Part shown: positions 6,001-45,231 of the stretch, one piece after another
Position numbering within the stretch: position 1 is the stretch's first letter
Layout: the number at the start of each line of letters is the position of its first letter
IMG/VR virus record: IMGVR_UViG_3300028197_000011
Span: 1 to 55,583 of that record
DNA: 55,583 nt
Origin: a virus
Reading direction: 5' to 3' (one strand)
Translations under genes and position numbers: made by a program
The notes under the pieces: generated by a model
The model's database searches: none
Told to the model about the DNA's origin: nothing
Seen by the model: the letters and a program-made list of their open reading frames with translations, nothing else

Positions 6001-8575
6001 TAAATCAGCTATTAATGTAAGTAAACCCGCTCCATCTGGTATTGAGCAAGAATACGAACAATTTAACAGCATGATTGACCAAATAAACGAAGAAGGTTAT
6101 CGTGAGTTTAATAAGAAAAGCATGACTTTACCTCAAACATCAGAAGCAGAAAGATTACCTACTTCATATGATATTGACAACATGACTCTACCAGAAACAT
6201 CGTCAGCAAAAACAGAAATCGCAGCACAGAAAGTTTTAATTGATGCGCCACTAGCGCCGGGAGATGGTGCTGACCCCTCTGGTGGAACTGGTGGAACTGA
6301 CCGACAGGTTGATCCGGGTCGTATGGCCCTTCTGGAAACGAAAAAACAACGGTTCGATCCTTTATCAAAAGGAATCCCCGGAATTCCTACAGGAACAGGT
6401 AAATATGATATTAATACGCAGGAAGAACAAACAAATAAATTAATACCTCTTGAAGAAGATAAGAAGGAGATGAGTAAGATAGCTACTGTGGATAAAATAT
6501 TAGAAGCTCCAAAAGCACCAAGTGATGAAAGCGCTGTCTCTAGTATGGCAGGTAATGATCAAATCATTAAGTTGTTGGCTGCTATATTACAGCAATTAAA
6601 AGACTGTTGCGTAGGCGGTGAGGGTGGTGGTGGTAGTGGTGGTGGCGGCGGTGGTTCACAAAACGCAAGATCAATATTTGATTTTGAGAAAACATACCCG
6701 GCAACTGCTGGTGGTGGGAGCATACCCGGAAATGAACAATTACATCCACGACGCGGTGGCTTGACTATTGATAAAAAATTACCGAACAAATACGACATTG
6801 ATCAGATGACCCTTCCAGAAAAAGATCAGCTACATCCAGAGGGTGGAGGCTTAATGATTGACGGAGGTAAGACTTTAATTGAAGACAATAGAGGAGTTAC
6901 ATATCCTGATCGTAAACAAAACAATGTTTTATCTGAACAAAAAAGAGTAAGAGAAAGAGAAGCTACTGTAAATAGAGACAAGAACTTACTCAACACACCA
7001 GAATCACCTACAACGCCACTTAATCCATCAGAGCATGGAGATCAAAGTCTTAGAGTCTTGGACGATTTAGGGGTTTCATCATACCCTGAAAGAAAACAAG
7101 CTAACATTCTCTCTAGACAAAAAAGACAGAGAGAGTCTAATGTAGATAGAGAAACGTCAGAAGCAATTACTGGCCCAAGCAAACACGGGGATAAGACCAC
7201 TCACAAAGCTTCTCAATATCCTGAACGTAGGCAAGCTAATATTTTGGCTAGACAAAAGAGGCAGAGAGAACGAGAAGCTAATGTAGACAGAGATAAAAAT
7301 GTAATTAGTTCTTTCCAATTTAATACTCCTCAAATGACTGCCCCCACATCTACGGATGAACATGAAGACAAAACTGTTAGTGTCTTAGACGACTTAGGAG
7401 TTTCAACATATCCTGAACGCAAACAGGCTAATATACTATCTAGGCAAAAAAGGCAGAGAGAGGCCACTGTAGACAGAGAAGCTTCAGAAGCAATTACTGG
7501 TCCAGACAAACATGGAGATAAGACCACACACAAAATTGAGCTTTATCCTGAACGTAGACAAGCTAATATTTTGGCTAGACAGAAAAGGCAGGGAGAGCGA
7601 GAAGCTGGAGCTGAAGACCATTCTAAGTTTAACATAAAAACAAGGCAAAGAATTCCTAACATGTTCTTAGATGATCCTTTCCCTACGCAAAGTGATACAA
7701 GTCAATTAGCCAATAACGCATCTAAATCAGCTCGCGGTCATAAAACTTTATCAAATAAAGTAATGAGGAAGAAAGATGCAATTAAAAAACTTCCACCATC
7801 ATTCCATGTAGATAGTCCTTTCACTCAATCTGAAGACATTCGCGCTCAAGGTGGACCGAGGCTTTTAGCTCCCGGCACTACGAACCAAGAAAATGCAATG
7901 CTAAATTCAGCTGAGAATAAAATAATGCAAGGTGTATCCGCTAGTGCGGGAACTCCATTCTCTGCTGGTATATCTGATGCTCCTGCGATTTCTAAAGGCA
8001 GCGCCTTACCACCTACTGCTCCACAAACAGCTCCTTCTAGGACTAGCGATAACGGATCTCTTGGAGTTGGGTCTGGAACGCCACCTAGTAATCAAATGAT
8101 GAGGAGTGTAGGTAGCGTCAGCGGATATACTGGCGGCAATACTTCTGGAGCTATGGAGATGGGGGGCATGGTAAGCTTACTTACCAGCATGACTCAGATA
8201 CTACAGAGTATTGACCAAAAAGCTGTCAAGCCTGCCGCTGGTCAAAACTCTAATGCAAGATCACAAGATAATGCTGGTATCGGTGGAGAAACTAAAGATC
8301 TTACTCAATCTCTTAGTAGTGTATTTGCTACGTTTAATTCTGATTTTTCAAATATTGTTCAAAGATTAGAAAATGTATCAATACAAATTCAAATAGCTCC
8401 CGTTCAGGTAAACATTGATCTTAACGGTGGGTCAATATTACAAAGTATAAGACAGTATGTTTCTGAAGAATTGTGGAATGGAATACAAAAAGAAATTTCT
8501 CAATACACAATGGGACCAAACGGCAAGTTACAAAAATCAACATCTACATTACCTTCTGGATTTGGATCGAATTAA
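1..8575 (+). CDS. Tail tape-measure protein (5' end outside window)
   Basis: The reading frame is open from base 2, so the true start lies upstream; at least 2857 residues are visible. Such proteins set phage tail length and are threaded inside the tail tube. Two copies of a tape-measure signature are present: DTVPAMLTPGEFVIKK (around base 107) and DTVPALLTPGEFVVNRK (around base 874), each followed by a G-GNL--MN stretch. A strongly hydrophobic segment at about bases 1690-1855 could form two membrane helices, as is common in this family. Long Ala/Glu/Lys-rich helical stretches follow (bases 1900-4150), then Pro/Gly repeat regions, a Gly-rich linker (6616-6660) and basic repeats (6897-7600). 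At about 0.15 nm per helical residue a fully helical protein would span roughly 430 nm, an upper bound because much of the C-terminal half looks disordered. It starts the visible plus-strand virion block. The family call is firm; domain limits are not. Confidence 0.9.
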   Translation, partial: GFLGGLSGGVGKGFNAGGPVRAFARGGPVPGSGNGDTVPAMLTPGEFVIKKSSVKKLGMGNLQAMNENKFSGGKKITSGLSPDALAANAARKQKREALARKQGEESSLKRPDGRPYQFGLASMFGSDLGVKPTILPKSRQVVMTNFGTLDKSMSEKYEGQMRTSVKKIASSMAKSLAGDIKDKTPIAGGQIDELINKAGFANAVGAFFETAIALTGAPYEKGQINDSLDFPSGLKNAAQKFGLPGDIPSDATRTSGPNGKNRNKFAAQVERYLEKMGVLKKMATGGPAGSDTVPALLTPGEFVVNRKSANKIGYGNLNRMNKVGKYAKGGVVQRFASGTGARGAQPSGGGGGGDISGLLSSFDALTAAIQQVVAELEGVNTSTLNMSDQQDEAATATKTNTTQTIKNSKAQKSSTESSLRMMAIFGAITTGLATLAPEIDETSGYLDYLRKNLSEFALQTVTASYLLSSLGAFKVENWKNTMSFIQGSAQEVAQGFSKFRKVLNNPIQSLKTLHAATMAAVKAEAAETLANKAAAASEAQETLANKAATLSEAQETLANKGSTLAGVFAFLSATVIAVGAAFGIAFAPVTAMLIGLGVVIGALTAVFGGLHLLASSELAGARKERAIEEGDVDEAGKQAVIEGGLYSSLLRLNDGLRATARAAAAATKSQKSNEEAQDKANRAMEKFRKGLSTVGELLGSTAIAQRDAVEARVAADAAIAQSARDAQSALDSFWRGLLSWLPWIDSGEQVLAKAEKEQQRLDKDAKQKERAAVNVAMPQLNILQRQVAAAGGSFEDFMISLRSSAAGNDIYKNLKSLDMLPQVREAFENIRDEVERTRKAFEALNLGLRSVQGAALAIKTSVDNLLDGQDGDTGALGPAIATLEASITSAAEAMDPAAIAAAMETAGDALRTLGATDAQIKKFQETMTAIQAAQRGFANATEDARRSLLEDLGNIDTNAGSDNIREAIADAIVNNLDDPTIGPEVKKRLKDAIKGVELDPGVIEDIMAGNLQGIDKILEDLGEGTLKQVITSFNQLNEVLNKKLALETQLVELEQKLISAKQKALDVELEAREWEEKFGGNKVSPQERRANILGKANIRGDEMGLPRLRTGSAQEFRERSAVARQQQRANADTRIAAAGPDGQPGVMDARRTVNSQAFKESEANLKQFFAEDLNTRRKLLEQIEKEITAVEAKTTAEKKAADALLNGTYEQFVEEMAAMGALAAAQTGDPRLMSEFSRTDYGRASNNIDEMRKAGVTSIDGIEIDDVDVSVRSAGLRAGGLNAGQADRFARLGVPNRNPETQDLRDEGLELAASLPDAFQGTIQGIEQQIEVQKKLIKTIEAEIAARSAAGFEVNKKREETNKKTEKDREALEEKRRRKLETTSSMEKEGGGGDNCCDGVSKVEVTNPNDMTDDIVNGLQDVVQGLRLFNFIKRLLDVPRKPPVPDTLRLPEADKPRLPEADKPRLPEADKPRLPAPDKPRLPAPDKPRLIGPETPKDPDFTVRDPDKLRIPGPDRAPTIELPGPTQRRLPGPQQRRLTGPESRTMIDPNAGRKARIIDETLNLPGPQQPRLTGPQQPRLTGPQQPRLTGPAPEATPVLKGETIPGKQTNIPNKTPQPNKPTSMTPYQPPVIDATNVEVVKAADAAEDASKGFKIFDKLKDGLGGFGTSLLNVGKTTLRVLDVLDPYLMAADYGFGAYKGATAKEGDRKGTQARSADKGLDEQSTLWKMFTGATTGDPRMGGSVTNDYLIGSETGSDLDLFLGGFEAVLRGAMDGGTVTGYNPAGIVGGAVYGGSAEIAKALNFLQQDMGELAKAEEKTTRMREASKDESGLDVNTRNLLGHKGSIQLNLEEAKKSGDSKRVTELEKELSNANIALENRIQERTGQGGDLRRSTGRNQFNGGLTDKAVEEDRILQDQYLEKDKAAQQEERAAQAAVAKRQAELKAVQQKTIQANQEVASQATTGTFDYRTGAQLTTGDTGLGLSRPEEEGARTGFAQRVAKSAINVSKPAPSGIEQEYEQFNSMIDQINEEGYREFNKKSMTLPQTSEAERLPTSYDIDNMTLPETSSAKTEIAAQKVLIDAPLAPGDGADPSGGTGGTDRQVDPGRMALLETKKQRFDPLSKGIPGIPTGTGKYDINTQEEQTNKLIPLEEDKKEMSKIATVDKILEAPKAPSDESAVSSMAGNDQIIKLLAAILQQLKDCCVGGEGGGGSGGGGGGSQNARSIFDFEKTYPATAGGGSIPGNEQLHPRRGGLTIDKKLPNKYDIDQMTLPEKDQLHPEGGGLMIDGGKTLIEDNRGVTYPDRKQNNVLSEQKRVREREATVNRDKNLLNTPESPTTPLNPSEHGDQSLRVLDDLGVSSYPERKQANILSRQKRQRESNVDRETSEAITGPSKHGDKTTHKASQYPERRQANILARQKRQREREANVDRDKNVISSFQFNTPQMTAPTSTDEHEDKTVSVLDDLGVSTYPERKQANILSRQKRQREATVDREASEAITGPDKHGDKTTHKIELYPERRQANILARQKRQGEREAGAEDHSKFNIKTRQRIPNMFLDDPFPTQSDTSQLANNASKSARGHKTLSNKVMRKKDAIKKLPPSFHVDSPFTQSEDIRAQGGPRLLAPGTTNQENAMLNSAENKIMQGVSASAGTPFSAGISDAPAISKGSALPPTAPQTAPSRTSDNGSLGVGSGTPPSNQMMRSVGSVSGYTGGNTSGAMEMGGMVSLLTSMTQILQSIDQKAVKPAAGQNSNARSQDNAGIGGETKDLTQSLSSVFATFNSDFSNIVQRLENVSIQIQIAPVQVNIDLNGGSILQSIRQYVSEELWNGIQKEISQYTMGPNGKLQKSTSTLPSGFGSN
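1571..1696 (+). repeat. Three 42-bp in-frame tandem repeats in the tape-measure gene
   Basis: Three consecutive 42-base units (starting at 1571, 1613 and 1655) encode a 14-residue helical unit around ETLANKAA and SEAQETLANK. The first two are close copies and the third diverges at its end. They lie just before the hydrophobic segment. Expansion or loss of such units is a plausible way to alter tape length. Confidence 0.75.
4346..4465 (+). repeat. Five 24-bp tandem repeats encoding PRLPEADK/PRLPAPDK
   Basis: Five consecutive 24-base units begin at 4346, 4370, 4394, 4418 and 4442. The first three are identical and encode RLPEADKP. The last two are a second identical pair encoding RLPAPDKP. Exact identity within each group suggests recent slippage or unequal recombination. 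The product is a Pro-rich, probably extended segment. Confidence 0.9.
4697..4768 (+). repeat. Three 24-bp tandem repeats encoding GPQQPRLT
   Basis: Three perfect 24-base units start at 4697, 4721 and 4745, followed by a partial unit. Degenerate relatives lie upstream near 4565-4620 (GPTQRRLP, GPQQRRLT). Together with the 4346 array they make a long Pro-rich region in the middle of the tape-measure protein with the same 8-residue period. Confidence 0.9.
6897..7600 (+). repeat. YPERKQANIL repeats with a duplicated segment
   Basis: Five copies of a basic block of the form YPER(K/R)QANIL(S/A)RQKRQRE occur here (the first is YPDRKQNNVL). Four of them belong to a larger duplication with an offset of 327 bases: the segment beginning at 7031 (EHGDQSLRVLDDLGVS) recurs at 7358 (EHEDKTVSVLDDLGVS), and each copy carries two YPER blocks separated by a SEAITGP(S/D)KHGDKTTHK-type spacer. 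This is within the tape-measure coding frame. Confidence 0.85.
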
Positions 8576-8588
8576 TAAAGGAAAAGAT

Positions 8589-11500
8589 ATGTCGAATTTA
8601 TGTGGAAATGATGGAATTAAAATTGATATTGTTAGCAAGTCTAAATTACGAGGCTTTGCAACTAAGCTATGTAAAGTTCGCGCTAGATCAAGGGTCAAAT
8701 GTTTATTTAAAGCAGGCGTGTCTGTACTCTTCCAAGGATTTGTTATAGGTTCAGGCGAATCTGAACCTTCAAATAATTTTGGTTCTTCCAATTTTGGCGA
8801 CACGCCAAGACGTAACCCTCCCCAAATATTAGTTAGGTCTATCTCTGGGTCTGGCGGTATTCGTATTAATACTACTATTCAGACTATCCGTCGATGCTCT
8901 ACCGATTTGCCTAAAGCTATCTTCGACATTACTTCTCAAGAATATATTGATCGTGGTTATAATGCTATACCAGATAGTATCTATTCCCCTTTTAATTCTA
9001 ACAATTCTATTCAAGTAAATTCTAAAGGTCCACTTATAGAGCATAGTTTAATTACCCAAAGGAAAAGAAGTAGTAATAGTAGATTGATCGCTAATTTAGG
9101 AAGACCCGTAAATAATATGGGTGTAAAACTTACTGGTATTGCGAAAGTTAAATCTAGATTCTTTGAAAAATTACATGGACATTTTGATATAATTAACAGT
9201 TTTGATAATTTTATTCCCACAGAAAAACTCTTTCCTATTAGAGATATTAATAATAAAAAGAACGGTATATCATTTGTAACAGAACGAACTAAGTCTAGTG
9301 AAATATATAAAAGTATTAATGAGGGCGTACACGTTGGTAATATTACCAAGCATGGAGCCAAAGGCTTTGTTATAGCAGACGATATTGATTCATTTATTAC
9401 ACCTTCTTCAATTTACACTGAGGGTGAATTTACTTACAAGTGTGAAGTCAACGCTCCTAGCATTACTCCCCTCGAAACATTTTTCTTCTTAAGAGCTTCT
9501 GCTCCTCTTACAAACTTTGACTCAGACATTCCACCAACTTATGAAGTATCTAATATTAAATTAGAAGACCCCTATGGAAATCTTATAGCTAAGTATAAAG
9601 ATTTTACTATTAGGGGTGAGCAAGACTATAGCGATAAGGATCATCATCACTATGTTACTTATGTAACTGAACCAGAGGTTAATTATGCTAAAGGTAATAC
9701 TTGGGATTATTATTATCCAGTTCTTGGTGAGGATAGTGGATACACTTTAAGCTTGGATATAAAAGGAAATTGTTTCTTCCATGCATTTGAAGAGGACTCT
9801 TTTAATAAAGGTTTCCAAGACGGTTGTAATCTAGATGATAAATTTGTCCAATCCTCTAACTCAGATTATCTAGGAATTGATGGAGCTGCTTTTTCTACTC
9901 AATCTAAAAATTACTTCGTAAGACCTACCGATGCTCTCAGAATTTCTGCGATTGAAATTAATAACAAAGGTAGCCTAAATGGAATATTGCATGATAATAA
10001 ATTAAATATGTTTTTAGATGTGGTTCCTACTGGATTATTACTAGAGAGAGTTCTTAGACCTCAAAAAATCTTATCAACAAATTATACTAATAATATATAT
10101 CCAACTAATACAATAAATATTTGGCAAACATCTCCAGATATTGATGGAAATAGATATGACAATACTGTAGATAGTGGTAAAAATAATTATGAACTTAAGG
10201 ACAGATTAAGTAATGAATATATAGAAGGGCATCTAACTTTAATAGACACTGATCCTATCGCAGATTCTGGAAAAATACAATTATTTTACTCTCATCAAGA
10301 TCCAAAAAGAGTAAAGGTTAAAACCGGAGGCGCTTTAAATATTGGAAATAAATATGAAGGTGCTTTTTCCAGACCAGAAATTAAACAAGTATTCCCAGAT
10401 GATAACTACTTCATTGTAGAAGAAATATTTTTAAGAATAGATATTAAAAAGGATGCGTCGAAACCAGACTTCCCTATAGATGTTGTTGGTTATTCAGATG
10501 ATGGCGTAATGATCTCTACTAAACAAGTAGGAGGATTTTTACAAAATGCTTCTTCTGGCGTAGGAACTGTTCCCTTAACTACTGGTTTTGATGATATTAA
10601 TGAGCTTGGTTTTTCATCAGAAACTATGTCTGATAAGTTTGCATATTATTCTAGACCTATTACTCCAAATCCTGCTGGCGATCATTACAGGCTAGAAGAT
10701 TCTGTAATAGTAACTAACAGTTCAGATTTTAAAACTTACGATGTTCCTCTTAAAATATATGAAGATAAAGTAGAACTTGGCAGATCTAGAGACTACAGAA
10801 ATAGTAGATTATTTGAAGCTCTTTATCTAGATATATATCCAATACCTAGCGGCACTGAAATATCTAAAGCAGACTTAGTAATTAAATATAAACCATCAGT
10901 AGCTTTAGCGTTGAACACTTTAGGTTGTGATCAAGTCCGTATTGGTCCTGCGTTTAGTCTTCTTACTCCAATCAAATCCTACGCTGGTAATAATAGCGAT
11001 GGATATATATTATCTAATATACCTCACGCTTATGAGACGAGAGAGCCTACTTTAAAAACGAATTACTCTAAGAGGTGGAGAGGTAGTAGCGGTCTTACAA
11101 GTACTGGTCCTTTTGACGCAGACGGTTTTGGTTTTGGTTTTGAATTTCCACAACTCGATTCTCCATTTAGTTCTGGTTACTACAATTTCTCAGATGTTGA
11201 TGGCACTGATATATACTCTTCTCAATCTTCTAGTCTTGTTGGTCAACTTTCCAACGCTAGCATGTCTAATAACATTGTTAGAAATATAGGTATGAGATTT
11301 ATATCTGACTCTTTATTCCCGCCCCCAACAGAACCTCCTGCTCCTGTAACAGAGGATGGTTTTGATCTTACTCAAAACATAATGTACAATTACCATATAG
11401 TTGGAACTTCTAATGGATTAAATTCAGCTAACGCTATTACTGTTAGAATTCCAGATGAATATGATAATAGAGCTGATGACACCGATAAAACTTATGTGAC

Positions 11501-14500
11501 CCCCACTTTATTTACGGCAAACTACGATGGTAACGCAAGGTTATACAATCGCGCTCCTAACTCTATTGGTATATCAGGTTTATGGACTTTATCAGTATTA
11601 GTTAATGATAAACACGTAGGAGATATATTTACTGAACAACAATCTTTCTCACAAACTTATGATGAATTTTTAAATATTGATGTTAACGTAGGTGATGAAA
11701 TTGCTTTGAGTGGAGTTACAACTAGTGTTAATCATGTAGCTGATGAATTTAATCTTATCTGCGAGTACGTAGGTATTCATATGAACACTTACGCCCCTTC
11801 ATATTACAAGCCTTATAAGACTATTAATTGGACTGAATCTGGACACGAGTTAGAAGACAATATAGTTGATGCGTTTGACCACGCTGTTAGAGCTTCAGGT
11901 GCTGATGGATATATAAACTTTGGAGATGTAGACACAGCTGATGGGTTTGCTATCTTCATGAGGTTTTCACCAGATATTACAGTTAGCGGTGTTAATCCAG
12001 ACTATAACCTTTGGAATTCTGGAGTACTATTCCACAAGCAAGATGCAGGGCAAGACTTAGAATTTGGTCTTAAGTATAACTATGGCAAGCTTCAAGCTTA
12101 TGCGCAAGATGATTTGGGCAATATTATTAGTATTGAAGACACTACTGATTATACTGAGTATCAATATCCTTTATCTGTATTACTAACTTATAATGCCAAC
12201 AAAAATGAGAAATTAAAACTATACACTCATAATGAAATGGCAACTGAAGAGTGGACAAGACTAAGAGCAGAATCAAATATATTTAATTTAAATGATGGCA
12301 ATAGTGACCTCACGTTTGCTTACGATAAAGAAAATGATATAGGTTTCAATGCATTTGTTACAGAGATAGGAATATCGAACTCTCACCCAGACGGTGGTTC
12401 TAATATAGTTGATGGTACTCCAGAAAAGTCATACTCTCAAGCTAATGTAGATACATTCTTTGATACTATAACAACTACTCATGATGATAGCAATCCATTG
12501 TGGCAATTTGTTGACAATAAAACTACTGAATGGAATCTTGGTGCATTTAAATACTGCTCGTTTGGTAATGACTTCAATACTATGACTACTCGTAACGGTG
12601 AAGATTATGTATATCACACTTATTACCATGACGGGCTAGACTATGCTGCTAGAACAGATATTAGTCTACCAGAATCCTTAAGCAACGCATCTGGTGTAGC
12701 GTATCATTCTCAGGTAGAAAATGATATGCTTAGATTTAATGTGGGTGGAAAGTCTGAAGAATTCTATGCTATTAGACCTAGAATTGCTAGAGCGTTTCCA
12801 AGAAGTTACATGTTGGCTGAAGACGCTCTGCGAGTTAACACTGTTTTACAACATCATTGTGATGGAGATATTTTCTGGCCTGATGGTAACAAGGGAGCCA
12901 AGTTAATTGTTAGTCTATATACTCCAGCGAAAGAAAGTGAGTTGACACCAACTAAGAATTATGGATTAATTAATAGAGCTACTCACTACGTTAATCCAGA
13001 AGATTGTTGGAATAAAATTAGAAGTGTATTTACTCTTAATGATATAAAAGACAAGACTAGCGAACCTTGGGCATTTTTTGACACTACCATAACAAAGCAA
13101 GAACTATCTGAAAACTATTTTTCAAAAGAAATAGACGATATGTTCATCCAGTATGATTTAGTTTATCCTTCAGGTGGTAATTATACAGAATCGAAAATTA
13201 CTATTCATTCTTTAGATGTTTCTTTACATGACGCTTTAACAAAAGAAGCTACAGTTACTGACTATTTATTCTTGCACTCTTCTGGCGCTTTTATGCAAGA
13301 GTCTGACGTTAACTTATTCTCTGACGCAAAGGGCATTAGTAACGACTACCTATGGCTTAGTAATACTGGTATAGCTTATGTTCCCTCTTCTGGAGAATTA
13401 TGGCTTACAACTTCAGGAACATTCAGAGATACAAACGACTTAATGTTAATGCAGCCAGATGTTTACGGCACTGCTACTAGTGATGATACGGGATCTAATT
13501 TTGGTGCAAACTTTGGTTCTGAAGAAGATCTTTCTGATCCACACAGAGACAGCGTAAAAATTCTTTTACCTTTTGATAATCATCTTAATGATATTTCTAT
13601 AAATAATCATTCAGCATCTCTTATTGATCAGATTACCCCCTTACTAACTAGTATATACCCAACCTTATCAAGCAATTCTGTTTTTGAAAATGGACAATCT
13701 GCTAACTTTGTAGATACGGAAGTGGGAAGCGATTGGATGAAGGGTAAATCAACCTTGAAATATGAAGGGGTTCAATTCGACCCAACAGGTATGGATGGAG
13801 ATTGGATGATAGATTTCTGGTATAACTTATATAATACTGAGAATTTCTCAGGATACGAATCACCGCAGGGAGCATGGCGAACTCAAGTTGGTTTTCACGC
13901 GACAATTTTTGAGTGGGGAAAATGGCAGCGAACGGAACATGGTATGCACGGCGCTGAAACTAAATTTGTTGGTATGAAGCTCGTATGGGCAAATGGTATT
14001 CTATCTTTAAAATTTGGTCTAAATCATTATGGCGCGGAGGCAACTCCATATCCAGAAGGTTGGACTTGGAGGGATCACCATAGTTTGTTTGACTCAAGCG
14101 AAGGTCTGAGTGCAACGGGTATGGCTGGTAGTGGAGACGACATAACTAGAAACGACAACCCAGCTGATTGGGTAACTTACGCATCTATAGGAGTAATCAA
14201 TAGACCTGATCGCCCAAATGTACCACATTACAATACAGATTTTTATGGATATGAAGATATTAGAAATATTTGGTCTAAGTTTATAATTAGAAAAATTGGT
14301 ACAGTTATTCAAATTTTTATCAATGAAGAAAAAGTAGCAGAAGCTGATATAGGTCGATGGAAATTCGATTCTTTTGATGAAGTTAATTACGATCCTTCAC
14401 TTGGTATTCCAGATAGTAACCCTCTTCAATTTAGATCAGGATATAATCATGAATTCTTGCTAGATGATTTTAGAATAACTATGGGTTCAGCAAGAAGTAC

Positions 14501-17500
14501 TGACATCAATTCAAATCCTACAACATCTCCCGACGCTGAATCCAATGGGTTATCTATATCTTCACCAATACCATCTCGTAGTCCAATAATAGAGCCACCA
14601 CCACCTCCACCACCTCCTACAACTCCTCCACCAGTTATTGGTTTGAGTATGCGTACTGTCGGAGGATACCCCAACACTCGTCAAGACATACATTTGTATT
14701 CTACTGGTACTGCTGAACTCATAAGTTCTAATGCTACATTACCTCTCAATCTTTTAGATTATGATAATCCAAATACACTTACTAATACATTTGATCTTTA
14801 TGTGTTATGTCTTCCCTCCGCATATACTCCTGAATATACTACTATTGATGCTGGTTTTAATTTATATTCTCTAGCTCCCCCATTAGCCCCTACTCCTTAT
14901 AGTGATAGTATTGCTCTTTTCTTAGAAGCTACTCCTATAATTTTAGATGTTGCTTCTAATATTCCATTATTTTTACAGCATCGCAAGCCAATAAATAGTG
15001 GGCCTAATCAATTAGAATCTTTTGTTTGGGACGGTGATAATTATGGGGTATCTATAGACGTAGTTGATAATAGTTTGGCATCTATATCTGCTAACAACGA
15101 AATACGTGGAGTTAATACTATATGTTATGGATCATGTGACGCTGTTAATAATATCAGTTGTACAGAAGTTGACATTTATACTCACGAAACTTTATGGAAT
15201 CCTTCTCTATGCGCAGAAGGTGGCGTTGCTAGAGCCATAAGAACATATAGCAATCCAGATGTTAACGCTTTTGGTTCGGATGTTCCTTATGATAATCATT
15301 ACTACGGTATGAGAAAGATAACAAATTTAATTCCTTTGGCTCCTTATAATATTATCTTAACAGGAAAAACTGGTAGCGATAAAATATTGGAAGTACCAAG
15401 AGAAATAAAGGAATGGGAATATGGATTTAAAAATGCTTCTACTGGAGACCCTAATAAAAACATTAATTACACTGGACTTAAACTGACAGCCCCCGTGTCA
15501 AACATTGAAAGTAATCATAACTTTGGCAAGGCTGTAACAGTTTTGGGCGACAGGGTTATTATTGGCGCTCCGTTTGAAGATGCCCCAGTTGGTGTTGACG
15601 ATTTATTAAACTCTGATACCGCTTCTTACAATTTAAAAGATGCTGGTAAAATTTACATATACAAAAAAGCCCCAGAAGCTACAGGCTATAGCTGGACAGA
15701 TCAAGATGACAAAGCTCCTTTCGTTTTAGAGCAAGAACTTGTTTTACCTGTGGGTTTCCGTAGGGATTATTATTTTGAAACTACAGAGGAGTTTAAAGAT
15801 GATGCCGGTGATAAGTTAGATTTTGAAGCTACTATTAGAAACTGGGTCAATGTTGGAGAAGGTAGACAGCTTGGTCACTCTCTTGATTCAGCTTCTAGAG
15901 GAGCTAAAGAAGTCATAGTTGCGGGTGGTCCCGGCTCTCTGTGGACAAGAGAATTCTCTCCCATTGCTACGACTCCAGTAAAAATTGCATTAATGGTATT
16001 TAATAATGAGCTTGTAACTAATCCAGCAAATACTAGCTGGCGAAATATTATTGAAGAGTTAAATAATAGAGATGTGTTGTATAGGTATTTTTCTGATCCA
16101 CCTGTAGAGTTCGATATTGAAATTATATTAATGGAACCGCTGTTAGGTTTAGATCTACCTTTCTCAGAGTCTGATGAATTTGATTATCCACAGCCAGATT
16201 TTGTTAGTAAACATCTAGTAAATAGACACTACAACTTTGATTTTAATTCACAAGAATATAAAGATCAAGAAAGTATTATGTTACAAGAGCTTATAAATGT
16301 TTACCATGAAAGATTTCCTCTAGACAGTTCAGCTTTGCACAACGGGATACCACCACTGTTTGGTATTTACATAGATAATTCAAGATCTCTAGGAACTAAC
16401 GCTGTGGGTTATTTTGATGGAGGTTTAACTCAGGGTGCAATTAATAAGTTTATAGAGTATGTAAAAGATTATTCATATGCTAATGGATTAAAATATTTCA
16501 ATAATACTCCCGGCTATACAGAATTTAATGTCACTGTAAAATCAGATGAAGATTGGATAACTCAATCTATTGAATGTTTAAAAGACTTAACTGACCAGAC
16601 TAGACTAAAAAATAGTGGTGGGTTTAATCTTATAGCTAATGATATTGGAACTTTTAACACAAATGCTTCTGAGTTTAATTATCCCCCAGCAAGTGGTGGT
16701 GCTGTATTTGTTTTCGAGAGAGAGCATCATGGCAATTTTGAATTAGTTCAGCATATCGAATCTCCTTCTACCTATAACAATGATGTTTCTGACAGATTTG
16801 GTCACGATGTAGCGATTAGTGATGATGGTAAAGTAATTGTAATAGGCTCTCCATTCTGTGAAGAGGCTGTACAAATATGGGAATATAATGATAGATATGA
16901 TAATATCCTTGACTCGTCGGTGGTTAACGGGAGATTCACTGAGTTCCTATCTGTAGATCATCAAGCAGAAAGATTGAATCAAACGTTTGGAGAAGCCTAT
17001 CAAGCTTATGAGCGTTATATAACTGAAATAGTAAATCAATCTTCTCCGTTTGATTTATTAAGAGATATATATTCTAATGCTTCAGAGTCGCTGAAATATA
17101 AATTTATTCTTTATGCCAACTTGAATTCATACAATAAAATTAAAACTGTTTCCTATAGTTCGTTGTTTTCTGGAGTTGGATCATGGGATAGATTGTACTC
17201 ACGATACATACCAACAGCTAGATTGGGCTATAGTGTAGATGTTAATGAAGATGGTAGCTTAGTTGCGATAGGTTCTCCAACTGATAGTCTTGGAGAAAGA
17301 GACAGTGCGATGACATGGTTTAGGTATGATCAGGCTGGAGGAGAACAGGTTACTGGATACGGTGGTTCTGATTGGCAATGGCAAAATTACACAAACGCTG
17401 GAGCTGTTAGATTATTAGAAAGTAGAGACTACTATCCGCACTCTAGAAAAGTAGTTGAGTATTACAAGTTTGGAAATAAACATGAAAGCATTGCTCCAGA

Positions 17501-20500
17501 AGAAGATTCTGGACTTTTCCTTACTTCTATGCGCAATCTGTTTGCTAGCAGGGGTTATGATTTCTCTAGAACTAGTTTTTCTGAAGATAAGAAAATACCT
17601 CAAGATGCTGGCTTGGCTTTTATAATTACTCCAGAGATAGACGCATCTAGTGATGAGATATTAGATAACATCCGAGAGTGGTTGGCTTATGGAGATAGAC
17701 ATCTTGTCTTAGTTGCTGACGATCCATTATATGAACAAGGTGGAGTATATGAAGATACAAACAAAATAATAAATTATATATTAAAATCATTAGATATAAA
17801 CTTAAGAGTTTATCCATCTAGAAATCGTTATGACGCTTTGCTGGAAGACACTGGACTATTCTTCAATGTTCGTACATCTTTTGTGCCATCAAAGACTACC
17901 AATTCTATATCCACCCCAATTCCGTTAAGAGCCTCTGGCGTAGCTGATATTAGATTCTATGATGAGGGTAAATCTGATCTTTATAGTTGTGACCTACCTT
18001 ATGGCATGAGGAAATCTAGCGATCCATTTGTTATATTAGAACAGATAGACGGTCTAAGCTCAAGTGAAGCTGGACGTATTCAACAGTACAGAGAGTTGCA
18101 CAGTAGGTGTGAACTACCAATCGTTCACGAGGGAGATTTAAGAGCTAAATATACAGATCAGTGCGTCTACAGAAGCTGTAAAGGGGAATCTACCTTGCTC
18201 AACTATCAGCATAATTTAGGGTTTATGTATGGCTCTCACACAACCTGTAATGATTGGGATTGTACAATATGTGACGAGTTTTGCCCACCAGTATTAAGCG
18301 TGAATGATAGAGAAGCTAGTGAGCCTATGCCAATTATGACTGCTTACGAGTCAATAAGTAAAACCATTAACGTTCCCGCAACTCCTGACTATGAAACCTT
18401 TGTAAAAACATTTGTTGGATTCAAAGAACCTTTGCCGGGAGTACCATACTATGACTTCACTGATATAGCATATTCTGGGATACAATACATGTGGTCAGCA
18501 GAGAGTGGTAATTTCTCAGCGATAGATTATAATATTAATAATACTATTAGCCAGAGTCTCTTTTTTGACCCTGAAGAATATAATGGTCAAGATGCATTAT
18601 TACAATCTAAAGCTAGTGTACCTTATGAAACAACAGAAAGACTTGAAAAGATATCTGATACTTTTGATTTTTGTGCTGAAGAAAGATTTGAAGCCTTTAC
18701 TGAATCTTCAGTTATTCTTATAGCTGGAACTTATACAGAAAAGAAAGAATCATTAGTATTACGTGCTGGCGATGTAAATCTTAATTTCTATTTTAATCTT
18801 TTAGCTAAGGATGTAAACGGATCTTGCAAGGTTGCACAGGTTGGTGGATTTACACAAAGAGCTTCTTACCAAGACGGTTATGCGTCTTCTGATATTCAAA
18901 TACAAATGCTTGGCTTAGGAATCAACATGTTAGACACAAATGTTCCTACTCATGAGCTTTATGATGTTTCAAAATATTACGATGTTGCTTGGATAGCTAA
19001 TAGTAATGACTATCCTTCCGACGAAGAAATAGAAGATATCAAAAGATTTTTACGTCTTAAGAATAAAAAGTTAGTAATAACTTATGGTCAAGATTCTGAT
19101 GGTGAAGATTTTGATCCAAGTACTGGTGCTATTAATCCTTCTCTTATTAATAAAGCCAAAATAGCTGAGTACATTTGTGAAAAACTTAACCTTACAATGA
19201 AACCAAGATTTTTAAATGGTAATAATGTTTACGCTTCTACTAGAAACGTCGTCGGAGATTGGCAACTCACTAGTTACTTTATTAATATTAATGAGAGTAG
19301 TCGTCTGTGGGCAGGATTTCCTACTGACCCAAATACGAGAATAGAAGAATTCTATATTAATAATCCACCGTTTGGTCGTAGAGGTAGAGGTCGTGGTTAT
19401 TCCCACGATGTAGTTCCTATTGAAGTGAATTCTGCTTCTCGGGTTGCCTACTTTGACCTACCAATATCAGATTTAATTACGGAAGAGCAGGGAGTGCCAA
19501 CATTCAGGACGGGCATAACTAAAGTGACTTTCGATGTTAAAGAACCTAAAGAAGATCAAGATAAATTTAATCTATTCAAATTGTTCTTTTCTGTTTCTAG
19601 TGAAAGTGAATTAGAAAGTTCTCCTCTTGAAGTATTTGTTAATAATTGTTCAACAACAGTAAGCCATCCAAGTGAAGCCACAGCCGTCGAGAATGGAATA
19701 AATGTAGAAGACGAAAGTGATTCTGGAGATATAATTTTAACTACTATAAAACATGGGTTTCACGAAGAACTTAGAACTGAAAATAGAAAAGAATATGAAG
19801 CTTTTATACAAATACCTTCTGGTGTTCCTAGTTTTGATATATTTATAACTGGATGTAGAAAGAAATATGAATTACAAAGTAATCCAGAATATTTAAGGAC
19901 TAATAGATTAGTAAGCATATCTGGTGTCAGAGTTAAAGCGTTAGAAAAAATAGATGAAAACAGACCAATTCCTATATATGAAGATGTACTTACTATAGTG
20001 CCGGGAACTGACGCTTATTCATATGAATATGATGTAGTTAGAGAAATTAGCAACTCTAGCGCACAGTACTGCTTTGCTGCAAATAGTGATGTTTGCGCCG
20101 AAGACGATCCGGCTGGATATGGAACTGAAGCCAACGCTCCCGATATTCCTGATGGCCCAATGGTAGTAGCTCAGGCTATATACCATCAAGCAGGATTTTT
20201 CTCTGGACATAACAAGTCTAGAGTAACAGTTATTAGTGATGCTAGTTTAATCCAAGGACGTACCACCTTATTAGAAGATGGCGTTCGTGTTAATCCAAGT
20301 CTCGTTAGTTTTCTCACTGGAATGTATCCAGCCACTAGTTTTGATAGCGAAAATTACGGTAGACAGTACGAGTCTGAGTTCAAAATAATTTCCCCTGAAA
20401 GATCTTCTCCTAGTAGATTAATTAATGCTTATCCAGAAAACTCTGGTTTAAATCATAGATTTGGTCAGTACCCAAGCAATGAATTGGCATTAAATAAATA

Positions 20501-22334
20501 TTCTGACGATGAAGGAAAGAAGCAAATTACTCCTGTTCCTCCGAATAAATTTGTAAGACAGCCGTTCGATGGTATGCTTGGGTTGATGGACGCTGTTGAT
20601 CCGGGTAAATTTAGAAAACTTCCTAAAGAACTTCAAATTCCTCCCGGTGAAAGATTTGCTCGTATGAGACCTACATCTGCGGGAGTAGCCGCTAAGAAAG
20701 CATACGAACAAGCTTGGTACGTTGATAATTTTGAGCCAGTACAGGCAGCTTACGCATCTAAGACTAAGCTACATGATACATATAATGGAGTTACATATGA
20801 AGATGCTGGATATAGAGATTTAATACCTCCAATACTTAGAGAAACTGGACATGACCATCTAGATCTAAAGGTATTTAATTCTGGCTATCCCGGCGATTTG
20901 TTTGGATACAAAGTAACTTTACATAAAGATAAATTATACGTAGGCGCTCCATTCGCAGTATACAAAGACGAGCAGGATATTGTCACTTGGAAAGACGTTA
21001 TTGATCAATCTTCAGAAGGTATATATGGCGCAGAGATTGGATTCAATGGAGGGGCAGGAGCCGTGTATGTTGTGGAAAGAACTGGAGTAATAGGATCTGG
21101 CGTTGGCAGCTTTAATAGATCTCGGGAAATTACAGATGGTATAGCTTGGGATGTAACTCAGAAATTTAGACCGGAAGAAATTAACGTTGGATTCTCTGGT
21201 ATTAATACTTTAAATTCAGAATCTTTAATTGGACCTAATTCATACTCTGATGAATTCTTAAAAGATCATGCATTTATGCCTGACATGTTTGGTTATGATA
21301 TAGCTCTTGAAGGAGATATATTAGCTATATCTGCTCCGGGGCATGACTTTGAAACGTTCTTTGAACACACGCCGGGAACGTTTATGAGGAAAGAATTTAA
21401 CGAGCAATTTGCTATTCCCAAAGTTAATTCTACTGATTTAGGCTCATCAGCTAACAGGTCTCTACTACCTGCAAGTGGAGATGTTGTTATTAATCATGGA
21501 GCAGTATTTACTTACGAAAATAAAATAGATAATTGGGGAGATAAAACGCAGCAATGGACGACCATACATAAAGTTGTTGGTCAGGGTTATAACACAAGAG
21601 TTCAAAACTCTGGAGAAAATACATTCTTCGGATCTGCTTTAGGTTTAAGTAGAGCTAGAAGAAATGATGGAGATTATATCTTAGCAGTTGGTGCAAGTAA
21701 TCATCTTTTCTCTAACAACAATAACACAGAAGTTGCAGAAGGTGGCGCTACTTATGCATACGATGGTATGCTTAGAAAGCTCAGGCCAGCATTTTCACAT
21801 CCAGATACATATATTTCTGGGCGTGTGTTTGGCAGTATACCAGATAAGGTTGATATGAAGTTCAATTTCTCTAATGGTTCTGTTAGTAATAAAAATGTAT
21901 TCTTTGATGGAAGAGTTCACTCTGACAGGCAGGGGCAAATATTTATAGAAGTTTCTGGTCAGGACAAATTGGAAAAAGGATATGTTATTCATAGACCATA
22001 TATAGAAAAAATCAGCGGTGGCTATGCTTTCGGCAAAGCAGAAGTCGCTACCATGCCTTTAATATCTGACGGTAGATTTGCCCCACATTCTGGCGTTATG
22101 CCTCTAATAAGTTTGGGTCCAAGTACTGGCAGTGTGTATAATAATATGAACTTAATTATGCAACGAGATCTCCAAACTTCTGGAGAATTAAGATTATACA
22201 GTAGTGGAATTAATTTATTTGGTCAGGTTCCTTTTGGTGAAAACGTTGAAAACACTGAAGGAGCTAAGGAGCTAGAAAATAATATTGCAAATATAAATAA
22301 TTTTGCATTTCTAGTTGGTAGAGGAGGATTTTAA
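8589..22334 (+). CDS. Giant virion protein with LamG-like regions and a seven-repeat FG-GAP propeller
   Basis: The protein has 4581 residues. The ATG at 8589 is chosen because GGAAAAG lies just before it and it follows the tape-measure stop by 13 bases; an in-frame upstream ATG at 8457 lies inside the tape-measure gene. Features in order: N-terminal beta-rich region; LamG-like segments around residues 1100-1220 and 1650-1970 (the second ends FLLDDFRITMGSAR); a polyproline linker near residue 2005; and FG-GAP-type repeats near residues 2311, 2425, 2735, 2877, 4104, 4233 and 4346 (for example NFGKAV..RVIIGAP and RLGYSVDVNEDGSLVAIGSP). A VWA-like patch IDNSRS (D2596) lies between repeats 2 and 3, and about 1200 residues are inserted between repeats 4 and 5. 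No signal peptide. FG-GAP and LamG folds usually bind ligands or glycans, so a tail-fibre, baseplate or receptor-contact role is inferred from them and from position. Confidence 0.75.
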   Translation: MSNLCGNDGIKIDIVSKSKLRGFATKLCKVRARSRVKCLFKAGVSVLFQGFVIGSGESEPSNNFGSSNFGDTPRRNPPQILVRSISGSGGIRINTTIQTIRRCSTDLPKAIFDITSQEYIDRGYNAIPDSIYSPFNSNNSIQVNSKGPLIEHSLITQRKRSSNSRLIANLGRPVNNMGVKLTGIAKVKSRFFEKLHGHFDIINSFDNFIPTEKLFPIRDINNKKNGISFVTERTKSSEIYKSINEGVHVGNITKHGAKGFVIADDIDSFITPSSIYTEGEFTYKCEVNAPSITPLETFFFLRASAPLTNFDSDIPPTYEVSNIKLEDPYGNLIAKYKDFTIRGEQDYSDKDHHHYVTYVTEPEVNYAKGNTWDYYYPVLGEDSGYTLSLDIKGNCFFHAFEEDSFNKGFQDGCNLDDKFVQSSNSDYLGIDGAAFSTQSKNYFVRPTDALRISAIEINNKGSLNGILHDNKLNMFLDVVPTGLLLERVLRPQKILSTNYTNNIYPTNTINIWQTSPDIDGNRYDNTVDSGKNNYELKDRLSNEYIEGHLTLIDTDPIADSGKIQLFYSHQDPKRVKVKTGGALNIGNKYEGAFSRPEIKQVFPDDNYFIVEEIFLRIDIKKDASKPDFPIDVVGYSDDGVMISTKQVGGFLQNASSGVGTVPLTTGFDDINELGFSSETMSDKFAYYSRPITPNPAGDHYRLEDSVIVTNSSDFKTYDVPLKIYEDKVELGRSRDYRNSRLFEALYLDIYPIPSGTEISKADLVIKYKPSVALALNTLGCDQVRIGPAFSLLTPIKSYAGNNSDGYILSNIPHAYETREPTLKTNYSKRWRGSSGLTSTGPFDADGFGFGFEFPQLDSPFSSGYYNFSDVDGTDIYSSQSSSLVGQLSNASMSNNIVRNIGMRFISDSLFPPPTEPPAPVTEDGFDLTQNIMYNYHIVGTSNGLNSANAITVRIPDEYDNRADDTDKTYVTPTLFTANYDGNARLYNRAPNSIGISGLWTLSVLVNDKHVGDIFTEQQSFSQTYDEFLNIDVNVGDEIALSGVTTSVNHVADEFNLICEYVGIHMNTYAPSYYKPYKTINWTESGHELEDNIVDAFDHAVRASGADGYINFGDVDTADGFAIFMRFSPDITVSGVNPDYNLWNSGVLFHKQDAGQDLEFGLKYNYGKLQAYAQDDLGNIISIEDTTDYTEYQYPLSVLLTYNANKNEKLKLYTHNEMATEEWTRLRAESNIFNLNDGNSDLTFAYDKENDIGFNAFVTEIGISNSHPDGGSNIVDGTPEKSYSQANVDTFFDTITTTHDDSNPLWQFVDNKTTEWNLGAFKYCSFGNDFNTMTTRNGEDYVYHTYYHDGLDYAARTDISLPESLSNASGVAYHSQVENDMLRFNVGGKSEEFYAIRPRIARAFPRSYMLAEDALRVNTVLQHHCDGDIFWPDGNKGAKLIVSLYTPAKESELTPTKNYGLINRATHYVNPEDCWNKIRSVFTLNDIKDKTSEPWAFFDTTITKQELSENYFSKEIDDMFIQYDLVYPSGGNYTESKITIHSLDVSLHDALTKEATVTDYLFLHSSGAFMQESDVNLFSDAKGISNDYLWLSNTGIAYVPSSGELWLTTSGTFRDTNDLMLMQPDVYGTATSDDTGSNFGANFGSEEDLSDPHRDSVKILLPFDNHLNDISINNHSASLIDQITPLLTSIYPTLSSNSVFENGQSANFVDTEVGSDWMKGKSTLKYEGVQFDPTGMDGDWMIDFWYNLYNTENFSGYESPQGAWRTQVGFHATIFEWGKWQRTEHGMHGAETKFVGMKLVWANGILSLKFGLNHYGAEATPYPEGWTWRDHHSLFDSSEGLSATGMAGSGDDITRNDNPADWVTYASIGVINRPDRPNVPHYNTDFYGYEDIRNIWSKFIIRKIGTVIQIFINEEKVAEADIGRWKFDSFDEVNYDPSLGIPDSNPLQFRSGYNHEFLLDDFRITMGSARSTDINSNPTTSPDAESNGLSISSPIPSRSPIIEPPPPPPPPTTPPPVIGLSMRTVGGYPNTRQDIHLYSTGTAELISSNATLPLNLLDYDNPNTLTNTFDLYVLCLPSAYTPEYTTIDAGFNLYSLAPPLAPTPYSDSIALFLEATPIILDVASNIPLFLQHRKPINSGPNQLESFVWDGDNYGVSIDVVDNSLASISANNEIRGVNTICYGSCDAVNNISCTEVDIYTHETLWNPSLCAEGGVARAIRTYSNPDVNAFGSDVPYDNHYYGMRKITNLIPLAPYNIILTGKTGSDKILEVPREIKEWEYGFKNASTGDPNKNINYTGLKLTAPVSNIESNHNFGKAVTVLGDRVIIGAPFEDAPVGVDDLLNSDTASYNLKDAGKIYIYKKAPEATGYSWTDQDDKAPFVLEQELVLPVGFRRDYYFETTEEFKDDAGDKLDFEATIRNWVNVGEGRQLGHSLDSASRGAKEVIVAGGPGSLWTREFSPIATTPVKIALMVFNNELVTNPANTSWRNIIEELNNRDVLYRYFSDPPVEFDIEIILMEPLLGLDLPFSESDEFDYPQPDFVSKHLVNRHYNFDFNSQEYKDQESIMLQELINVYHERFPLDSSALHNGIPPLFGIYIDNSRSLGTNAVGYFDGGLTQGAINKFIEYVKDYSYANGLKYFNNTPGYTEFNVTVKSDEDWITQSIECLKDLTDQTRLKNSGGFNLIANDIGTFNTNASEFNYPPASGGAVFVFEREHHGNFELVQHIESPSTYNNDVSDRFGHDVAISDDGKVIVIGSPFCEEAVQIWEYNDRYDNILDSSVVNGRFTEFLSVDHQAERLNQTFGEAYQAYERYITEIVNQSSPFDLLRDIYSNASESLKYKFILYANLNSYNKIKTVSYSSLFSGVGSWDRLYSRYIPTARLGYSVDVNEDGSLVAIGSPTDSLGERDSAMTWFRYDQAGGEQVTGYGGSDWQWQNYTNAGAVRLLESRDYYPHSRKVVEYYKFGNKHESIAPEEDSGLFLTSMRNLFASRGYDFSRTSFSEDKKIPQDAGLAFIITPEIDASSDEILDNIREWLAYGDRHLVLVADDPLYEQGGVYEDTNKIINYILKSLDINLRVYPSRNRYDALLEDTGLFFNVRTSFVPSKTTNSISTPIPLRASGVADIRFYDEGKSDLYSCDLPYGMRKSSDPFVILEQIDGLSSSEAGRIQQYRELHSRCELPIVHEGDLRAKYTDQCVYRSCKGESTLLNYQHNLGFMYGSHTTCNDWDCTICDEFCPPVLSVNDREASEPMPIMTAYESISKTINVPATPDYETFVKTFVGFKEPLPGVPYYDFTDIAYSGIQYMWSAESGNFSAIDYNINNTISQSLFFDPEEYNGQDALLQSKASVPYETTERLEKISDTFDFCAEERFEAFTESSVILIAGTYTEKKESLVLRAGDVNLNFYFNLLAKDVNGSCKVAQVGGFTQRASYQDGYASSDIQIQMLGLGINMLDTNVPTHELYDVSKYYDVAWIANSNDYPSDEEIEDIKRFLRLKNKKLVITYGQDSDGEDFDPSTGAINPSLINKAKIAEYICEKLNLTMKPRFLNGNNVYASTRNVVGDWQLTSYFININESSRLWAGFPTDPNTRIEEFYINNPPFGRRGRGRGYSHDVVPIEVNSASRVAYFDLPISDLITEEQGVPTFRTGITKVTFDVKEPKEDQDKFNLFKLFFSVSSESELESSPLEVFVNNCSTTVSHPSEATAVENGINVEDESDSGDIILTTIKHGFHEELRTENRKEYEAFIQIPSGVPSFDIFITGCRKKYELQSNPEYLRTNRLVSISGVRVKALEKIDENRPIPIYEDVLTIVPGTDAYSYEYDVVREISNSSAQYCFAANSDVCAEDDPAGYGTEANAPDIPDGPMVVAQAIYHQAGFFSGHNKSRVTVISDASLIQGRTTLLEDGVRVNPSLVSFLTGMYPATSFDSENYGRQYESEFKIISPERSSPSRLINAYPENSGLNHRFGQYPSNELALNKYSDDEGKKQITPVPPNKFVRQPFDGMLGLMDAVDPGKFRKLPKELQIPPGERFARMRPTSAGVAAKKAYEQAWYVDNFEPVQAAYASKTKLHDTYNGVTYEDAGYRDLIPPILRETGHDHLDLKVFNSGYPGDLFGYKVTLHKDKLYVGAPFAVYKDEQDIVTWKDVIDQSSEGIYGAEIGFNGGAGAVYVVERTGVIGSGVGSFNRSREITDGIAWDVTQKFRPEEINVGFSGINTLNSESLIGPNSYSDEFLKDHAFMPDMFGYDIALEGDILAISAPGHDFETFFEHTPGTFMRKEFNEQFAIPKVNSTDLGSSANRSLLPASGDVVINHGAVFTYENKIDNWGDKTQQWTTIHKVVGQGYNTRVQNSGENTFFGSALGLSRARRNDGDYILAVGASNHLFSNNNNTEVAEGGATYAYDGMLRKLRPAFSHPDTYISGRVFGSIPDKVDMKFNFSNGSVSNKNVFFDGRVHSDRQGQIFIEVSGQDKLEKGYVIHRPYIEKISGGYAFGKAEVATMPLISDGRFAPHSGVMPLISLGPSTGSVYNNMNLIMQRDLQTSGELRLYSSGINLFGQVPFGENVENTEGAKELENNIANINNFAFLVGRGGF

Positions 22335-39363: not shown

Positions 39364-39857
39364 TTAAAATATCCTTTATATAAGCTTATAAGTAAATCAT
39401 TAAGTTGATTTGATTCAAATATGTTATTAACAACACAGAGTCCTTGTTTAATTTTCCAAGAATTTAATATTTTATCGGAAGTAAAGATATTCATATCACC
39501 AGCTAATTTATTTACTGCTGATTCAAATTTAGGAGTAATTTCTTGGGGAGGATGGGTAGTAAATACGCATAGTTTAGGTATATCAAAAATTTGAACTATA
39601 GAATCACTGACTTGATTTGTTACGTTGTCATTATCAAAACATATAAGAATGTCATAGCTAATATTAGACATGCCATCACCTTCTGGAAGTTCAAATATAT
39701 TATCTACCTCTCCTGAGTCTTCTATTTTTTCTACTGAAAAAAGATTATTTTTATTAATTAATAGCGCTGTTTCTTTTGTCAAGTGGCAACAAAATAAATT
39801 TAAAACTTCTTTTTGTTGAGACACAACGCTACGTAGCACTGATGAATTTCTATTCAT
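39360..39857 (-). CDS. Small Rossmann-like protein of the glycan cluster
   Basis: The 165-residue protein has AAGGAAAG about five bases before its ATG and overlaps the upstream glycosyltransferase gene by eight bases. The sequence alternates strands and helices (SYDILICFDNDNVTNQVSDSI, PKLCVFTTHPPQE, MNIFTSDKIL, GLCVVNNIF), like one half of a GT-B enzyme. No catalytic motif is visible. It may be an accessory or a remnant domain. Confidence 0.5.
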   Translation of the reverse strand: MNRNSSVLRSVVSQQKEVLNLFCCHLTKETALLINKNNLFSVEKIEDSGEVDNIFELPEGDGMSNISYDILICFDNDNVTNQVSDSIVQIFDIPKLCVFTTHPPQEITPKFESAVNKLAGDMNIFTSDKILNSWKIKQGLCVVNNIFESNQLNDLLISLYKGYFK

Positions 39858-42620: not shown

Positions 42621-42946
42621 GACCACTCCCAATCCTCAAAGTCTGAGTCCTGACAAATATCAAATTCATTAACCCTAAAAATTATAGAATCATTATCCTT
42701 AGAAAGATTTTTTGCAGAAGCCTGTATGGATATTTTAGTACCTTTTTTTGCAAATTTTTCTATGGTCTCTGCGCCAGTGTGCCAAGCTTCGCAGTAGATG
42801 TGTGTTGGTATTCTACTCTTCTCTCCTGTACTTTTCGTTCTCCTGTAATTATATACTACTACCACAAATTCTGCTAGAAGTACACTACCAACGTGAGATG
42901 TTTTTGGGTTTTCTATAAGATACCCAGTAAAACAACAATTATTCAT
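42617..42946 (-). CDS. ssb: Single-stranded DNA-binding protein
   Basis: The 109-residue protein has AGGAG upstream of its ATG. The OB-fold pattern of bacterial-type SSB is visible: MNNCCFTGYLIENPKT, then LLAEFVVVVYNYRRT, IPTHIYCEAWHTGAETIEKF, KKGTKISIQASAKN and IIFRVNEFDIC. The C-terminal tip is acidic and aromatic (DSDFEDWEWS). In bacterial SSB such an acidic tail recruits replication partners, so a partner-binding role is inferred. It coats single strands at the phage fork and follows the polymerase genes directly. Confidence 0.85.
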   Translation of the reverse strand: MNNCCFTGYLIENPKTSHVGSVLLAEFVVVVYNYRRTKSTGEKSRIPTHIYCEAWHTGAETIEKFAKKGTKISIQASAKNLSKDNDSIIFRVNEFDICQDSDFEDWEWS

Positions 42947-45229: not shown

Positions 45230-45231
45230 TG

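Follow-up and report, generated by a model that had tools for sequence, protein, structure and literature searches.

The closest described counterparts of the protein analysed here are the I-domain integrin alpha chains (alphaX, alphaM, alphaL and alphaE), the integrin-type FG-GAP propellers of bacteria, the VWA domains (PF00092, PF13519) and, likened by description only, the Vibrio adhesins Bap1 and RbmC. An I domain is present in half of the animal integrin alpha subunits. In VWA domains the D-x-S-x-S motif comes after strand 1 and the third-loop Asp after strand 4; in Bap1/RbmC a beta-propeller used for adhesion is interrupted by an inserted binding domain, which is a beta-prism. In the text searched, PMC3192720 places the integrin I domain between blades 2 and 3, assigns the arrival of a MIDAS domain in the integrin propeller to the chordate era and describes FG-GAP repeats of the integrin type in prokaryotic proteins as well; it mentions the I domain for animal integrins only and mentions no phage members. 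The literature searched contained no phage protein in which a propeller is combined with an insert in blade 2.

We analysed a 55,583-nucleotide stretch of viral DNA (the whole of positions 1 to 55,583 of IMG/VR record IMGVR_UViG_3300028197_000011, hereafter the window), in which a giant protein of the tail region shows a layout that is a variant of the known FG-GAP propellers. It resembles the I-domain integrin alpha chains in the FG-GAP propeller fold predicted for its two halves, whose 4 and 3 blades match theirs, and in having, inserted at the second blade, an alpha/beta domain that bears a D-x-S-x-S-type motif (insert I). It differs in that this domain interrupts blade 2 in its B-C loop instead of separating blade 2 from blade 3, in that the motif lies on the fourth strand, in the lack of conserved DxDxDG calcium loops, and in an additional 1,120-residue insert that parts blade 4 from blade 5 (insert II). 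It has no known beta subunit or leg domains either, and Pfam scans of five neighbouring tail-region proteins gave nothing like an integrin beta subunit, leg or membrane domains. Because the calcium loops and the position of the I domain are not those of integrins, we do not class the giant protein as an integrin, and because motif position and profile differ from VWA we do not class insert I as a VWA domain; the protein may nevertheless work like an integrin or VWA protein.

Genomic setting and relatives

The features of the locus are listed in the table below. The product of the ORF directly upstream contains the motif PAMLTPGEFV and a stretch rich in hydrophobic helices; a PHROG search with it gave no match, so that the name tape-measure-like rests on motif and position. 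No PHROG matched the giant protein itself, and the downstream neighbour matched neither PHROGs nor Pfam.

Features of the giant protein and its neighbours (window positions; residues are those of the giant protein)
Feature	Position	Strand	Basis or description
Tape-measure-like protein, at least 2,857 aa	2..8575	+	directly upstream, overlaps the giant ORF
Giant protein holding the propeller	8457..22334	+	4,625-aa ORF
Likely N-terminal strand closing blade 7, residues 2338-2346 (YTGLKLTAP)	15468..15494	+	inference
Blade 1, FG at 2356	15516..15740	+	best Pfam stretch 2342-2376; AlphaFold2 strands
Blade 2, strands A and B (LG at 2472, AGGP)	15864..15932	+	motif, alignment, AlphaFold2
Insert I, alpha/beta domain in blade 2 B-C loop, residues about 2500-2737	15954..16667	+	AlphaFold2; conserved in 49 relatives
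MIDAS-like motif D2640-N-S2642-R-S2644	16374..16388	+	[DE]x[ST]xS in 49/49
Blade 2, strands C and D (GGAVFVFE...FELVQHI)	16692..16766	+	AlphaFold2
Blade 3, FG at 2781	16791..17159	+	sequence, AlphaFold2
Blade 4, LG at 2923	17217..17471	+	sequence, AlphaFold2, regular expression
Insert II, about 1,120 residues (3010-4130)	17484..20846	+	DUF4350-like alpha/beta parts and jelly-roll carbohydrate-binding-like sandwich
Blade 5, FG at 4149	20895..21176	+	sequence, AlphaFold2, VIA
Blade 6, FG at 4278	21282..21581	+	Pfam, AlphaFold2, VIA
Blade 7, FG at 4391, three own strands	21621..21776	+	sequence, AlphaFold2, VIA
Downstream neighbour, 685 aa	22334..24391	+	ORF

The region is common to at least 57 viral proteins at identities of 26-61%. 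Scans of viral contigs yielded one relative at 42% identity, another at 54% and then approximately 70 loci for each half of the region. Stop-free sequences, the window included, numbered 57 for residues 2310-3290 and 62 for residues 3280-4470, and filtering to <90% identity left 49 and 55 non-redundant sequences, respectively. A tblastn search of 50,697 phage records with the region and one divergent relative as queries found no match. A genome scan with insert I alone likewise returned no relative; with the longer region as query it returned bacterial proteins matched mostly over their FG-GAP parts and one full-length copy, on a contig filed as a Verrucomicrobiales MAG, which is probably viral because its gene layout matches that of locus L047. 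A search of PDB sequences gave nothing beyond a chance match.

An ORF with the TPGEF motif of tape-measure-like proteins abuts the giant gene upstream in most loci with enough upstream sequence, and in nearly all relatives the giant gene is followed by an ORF of 518-905 aa (mostly 520-720 aa). In eight relatives (L028, L032, L036, L037, L040, L067, L076 and L078) two abutting or overlapping ORFs stand in place of the single giant gene, an N-terminal one and a propeller-bearing one of about 2,200-2,500 codons, and because the split falls before it, the propeller-bearing half may be a natural unit.

Two of the loci recovered (L016 and L017) encode very large FG-GAP proteins of 5,019 and at least 4,377 residues, which align with relatives of the giant protein over the FG-GAP units only and seem to be without insert I. 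Adjoining genes of one relative (L005:13052-16843 and L005:17177-21442) have long runs rich in threonine (TTTTTT...), which may be flexible linkers or unstable repeats.

An FG-GAP propeller modelled in two halves

Seven FG-GAP units were found in the giant protein, each consisting of FG or LG followed by a strand that ends in a GAP variant. Pfam FG-GAP_2 (PF14312) matched the protein over four stretches with E = 1.6e-11 and 44.7 bits against a curated cut-off of 23; in the whole record the family was found at four places, every one inside the giant ORF, and the profile matched 49 of 49 relatives at E <= 0.1. A strict motif regular expression recovered 4 units where 0.055 are expected in shuffled sequence, and the remaining three were recognised by eye and in alignments. 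The seven repeats described in the initial annotation are thus real by profile, regular expression and alignment, and the search against FG-GAP families that it proposed passed the curated cut-off; it had picked the right units, but its residue numbers (2311, 2425, 2735, 2877, 4104, 4233 and 4346) are about 45 too low. Conserved DxDxDG calcium loops like those in the later blades of integrin alpha are lacking; there is one degenerate calcium-type loop, DVNEDG at 2928 in blade 4, whose first D is not kept in relatives.

The two halves were modelled apart with AlphaFold2, residues 2310-3290 from the 49-sequence alignment (pLDDT 79.8) and residues 3280-4470 from 55 sequences (pLDDT 76.9). The first model comprises blades 1-4 and the second blades 5-7, four blades and three and therefore seven, with four strands per unit except in blade 7, which has three. 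The segment YTGLKLTAP before the first FG resembles in sequence the outer strand of the FG-GAP units, and going by the models it probably supplies the strand missing from blade 7 and so closes the ring. Blade 3 has in addition a predicted helical insert of ~75 residues between its strands C and D (window 16887-17115), which would face the side opposite to the other inserts if the integrin layout holds.

Foldseek comparison with the PDB ranked integrin alpha chains at the top for both half models. For the 2310-3290 model, which includes insert I, the top five matches were all I-domain integrins, alphaE and alphaX among them, at E values of 3e-7 to 1e-3 (alphaX, 4neh, E = 3.4e-7), and the best integrin without an I domain followed at E = 0.018; TM-scores over the long alignments were low (0.13 for this model). 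In VIA superpositions the same model matched alphaM with Z = 18.9 over 198 residues at 2.4 A, and blades 5-7 matched alpha5 270-452 and alphaV 294-468, the C-terminal part of their propellers, with Z = 12.3 and 12.5, respectively (159-168 residues, 2.8-3.1 A). The preference for I-domain integrins means that both proteins have an insert of similar size at a similar place. Since an alignment is penalised less for passing through inserts of comparable length than for opening a long gap, this ranking is not proof of the same fold and may partly reflect similar insert size. In BFVD the best matches were FG-GAP proteins from giant viruses and uncultured Caudovirales, and two VWA-named viral proteins were also present with weak scores. 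As modelled, a propeller of the integrin-alpha type with 4+3 blades is supported; of the closed seven-blade propeller suggested earlier, the four- and three-blade halves, modelled apart, each match integrin alpha and would together make the ring.

Insert II, estimated at about 1200 residues in the initial annotation, measures about 1,120. Its first part resembles DUF4350 (PF14258) in 16 of 49 relatives, a weak likeness with the listed matches below the curated cut-off (best E = 1.1e-4). A sandwich between residues 3340 and 3827 superposed on a porphyran-binding carbohydrate-binding module (8xmz; VIA Z = 10.0, 128/137 residues), and Foldseek with the 3280-4470 model returned several carbohydrate-binding modules as well as ephrin-receptor ligand domains at E values of 0.002-0.02. 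These structural matches make carbohydrate binding by insert II a possibility.

Insert I and its MIDAS-like motif

Insert I lies after the GAP strand of unit 2, VIVAGGP (2486-2492), and before the third strand, GGAVFVFE (about 2746). The patch that the initial annotation placed between repeats 2 and 3 is therefore inside repeat 2, between its second and third strands, and, contrary to that annotation, the loop is not the one that holds the integrin I domain. AlphaFold2 predicts the order b-a-b-b-a-b-a-b-a (strand 2506-2515, helix, strands 2550-2563 and 2583-2590, helix, strand 2634-2640, helix, strand 2689-2695, helix), with block pLDDT values mostly of 73-95.

The D-x-S-x-S patch IDNSRS is present, as the annotation held, and is conserved, but it starts at I2639 and its aspartate is D2640, the last residue of the fourth strand, not D2596. 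The pattern [DE]-x-[ST]-x-S is kept in all 49 non-redundant relatives, with D in 35 and E in 14 at position 2640, S in 37 and T in 12 at 2642, and S in all 49 at 2644. By chance alone, a bare D-x-S-x-S should occur ~2.6 times in the giant protein, and it was seen twice; the D2640 motif is above chance because it is placed after a G-I-Y-I strand, an arrangement with a chance expectation of 0.02, and because it is kept in 49/49. Position 2517, just after the first strand, is D in 40 and N in 9 of the relatives, and position 2704, at the start of the last helix, is S or T in 45/49. Judged from the aligned residues, these two positions fit the remaining MIDAS loops, and a MIDAS-like site in insert I is plausible.

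The likeness to VWA domains thus extends to a D-x-S-x-S at a strand end with a helix behind it and to conserved D and S/T residues in the other two presumed loops, whereas profile recognition and strand order speak against a standard VWA domain. None of the VWA families in Pfam rose above its cut-off in the 49 members (the closest was VWA_2, with E = 0.15 in a single member), and the VWA profiles touched the motif segment only, so the profile support looked for by the initial annotation did not materialise on the VWA side; its VWA-like patch stands as a MIDAS-like motif in a folded alpha/beta domain. The insert I profile had no match among PDB sequences. SPOC_AIPP2, found in 2 of the 49 at E = 0.004, was taken as chance. 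In the VIA lists, which propeller matches fill, the missing VWA entries are not evidence. When the profile was aligned by hhalign with 29 bacterial VWA domains drawn from the searched genomes, it scored 21.7 over strand, D-x-S-x-S and helix, a span of only ~27 columns, compared with at most 18.7 in 100 column shuffles and ~11 for response-regulator families.

The D-x-S-x-S of insert I follows the fourth predicted strand and not the first, and the model has one strand fewer than VWA. The positions of the D-x-S-x-S and of the third loop are exchanged relative to VWA, which a circular permutation would explain; since an insert I profile rotated before hhalign gave a VWA match no longer than the unrotated one, the permutation is an argument from residue positions and not from sequence. 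At this resolution, a motif moved to a new position within another doubly wound fold would look alike, and the reading that fits best is that insert I is a doubly wound domain, either a VWA-like one with a circular permutation or one of another kind.

A more tentative reading, which we consider distinctly less probable, accepts the propeller as real but takes insert I as an ordinary Rossmann-type alpha/beta domain (cysteine-hydrolase, isochorismatase-like or other) in which the D-x-S-x-S is a catalytic or structural loop rather than a MIDAS, possibly an enzyme that modifies host surface polymers. Isochorismatase-like families have a catalytic Asp conserved at the end of the first strand, where insert I has its conserved D/N, and seven chains of one isochorismatase-like hydrolase appeared at Foldseek ranks 8-27 (E = 0.03-0.14, prob 0.2-0.4); the failure of VWA families to match also speaks for it. 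On the other hand, the isochorismatase profile comparison was at background, 11.6 against 21.7 for VWA, no isochorismatase-like Pfam family was among the matches of the 49 members, no conserved cysteine or lysine is visible in the conserved columns of insert I, and the spacing of the [DE]x[ST]xS, where a strand ends and a helix comes next, is that of a MIDAS.

Proposed role

The role that we consider most likely is that of a tail-borne adhesin, probably with an integrin-like head and a predicted metal-dependent ligand site. Computation supports directly the FG-GAP units, the fold match of the two halves, the insertion points, the conservation and the gene order; ring closure, binding of metal and ligand, and location in the virion are proposals built on these. 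The C-terminal half of the giant protein would form a seven-blade FG-GAP propeller like that of integrin alpha, its blades 1-4 and 5-7 parted by the 1,120-residue insert and its ring closed by the strand before the first FG. The blade 2 B-C loop and the loop that receives the integrin I domain share one ring face, and the inserts in that B-C loop and in the D-A loop between blades 4 and 5 would leave the propeller on this same face. Insert I would be a doubly wound alpha/beta domain whose MIDAS-like site combines the end of one strand (D/E2640, S/T2642 and S2644), the end of the first strand (D/N2517) and the start of a helix (S/T2704). On its simplest reading it would be a circularly permuted VWA-like domain, which holds a divalent metal and uses it to bind an acidic group of a host surface ligand, both activities being putative, and insert II may add the carbohydrate-binding-like sandwich. 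Receptor or glycan binding is what we infer from the position among tail genes together with the fold.

Taken as a whole, the explanation of a tail-associated adhesin with a closed seven-blade integrin-type propeller and a permuted VWA-like MIDAS domain seems to us evenly poised between right and wrong. Its stronger form, that phages built an integrin-like head independently of animals, with a seven-blade FG-GAP propeller, a permuted VWA-like domain in blade 2 with a working MIDAS, and a tail gripping host ligands via a divalent metal, is speculative and on balance doubtful.

It is rather unlikely, and less likely than an ordinary Rossmann-type domain, that the propeller and its inserts are a structural scaffold which stabilises the tail tip or fibre and binds other virion proteins, not a host receptor, with the motif needed for folding. 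Receptor-binding tips usually vary fast, whereas most of the giant protein is conserved (32-59% identity in most 400-residue stretches), which together with the synteny with the tape-measure-like gene suggests a core virion part. The stretch of low identity, residues 1601-2000 (16-27%), falls outside the propeller, and we retain the scaffold explanation for this reason. Integrin propellers and carbohydrate-binding-module-like sandwiches, however, are typical binding modules (PMC3192720), which speaks against a scaffold.

Were a comparable layout present across a widespread family of uncultured phages, the same solution would have originated twice; these water phages would have a candidate host-binding head, and there would be a possible module for metal-dependent adhesion outside animals, with D2640, S2642 and S2644 as a testable site.

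Two further observations concern the minus strand of the window. A DnaE-like DNA polymerase appears to be split in two ORFs (42994-47281), of which 45710-47281 matches phrog_405 at 244-617 and 42994-44577 matches it at 627-1067; between the two pieces lie an ORF of 163 aa and one for an exonuclease subunit (44549-45229). Two adjoining glycosyltransferase genes, each matching phrog_2170, lie at 39850-42632.
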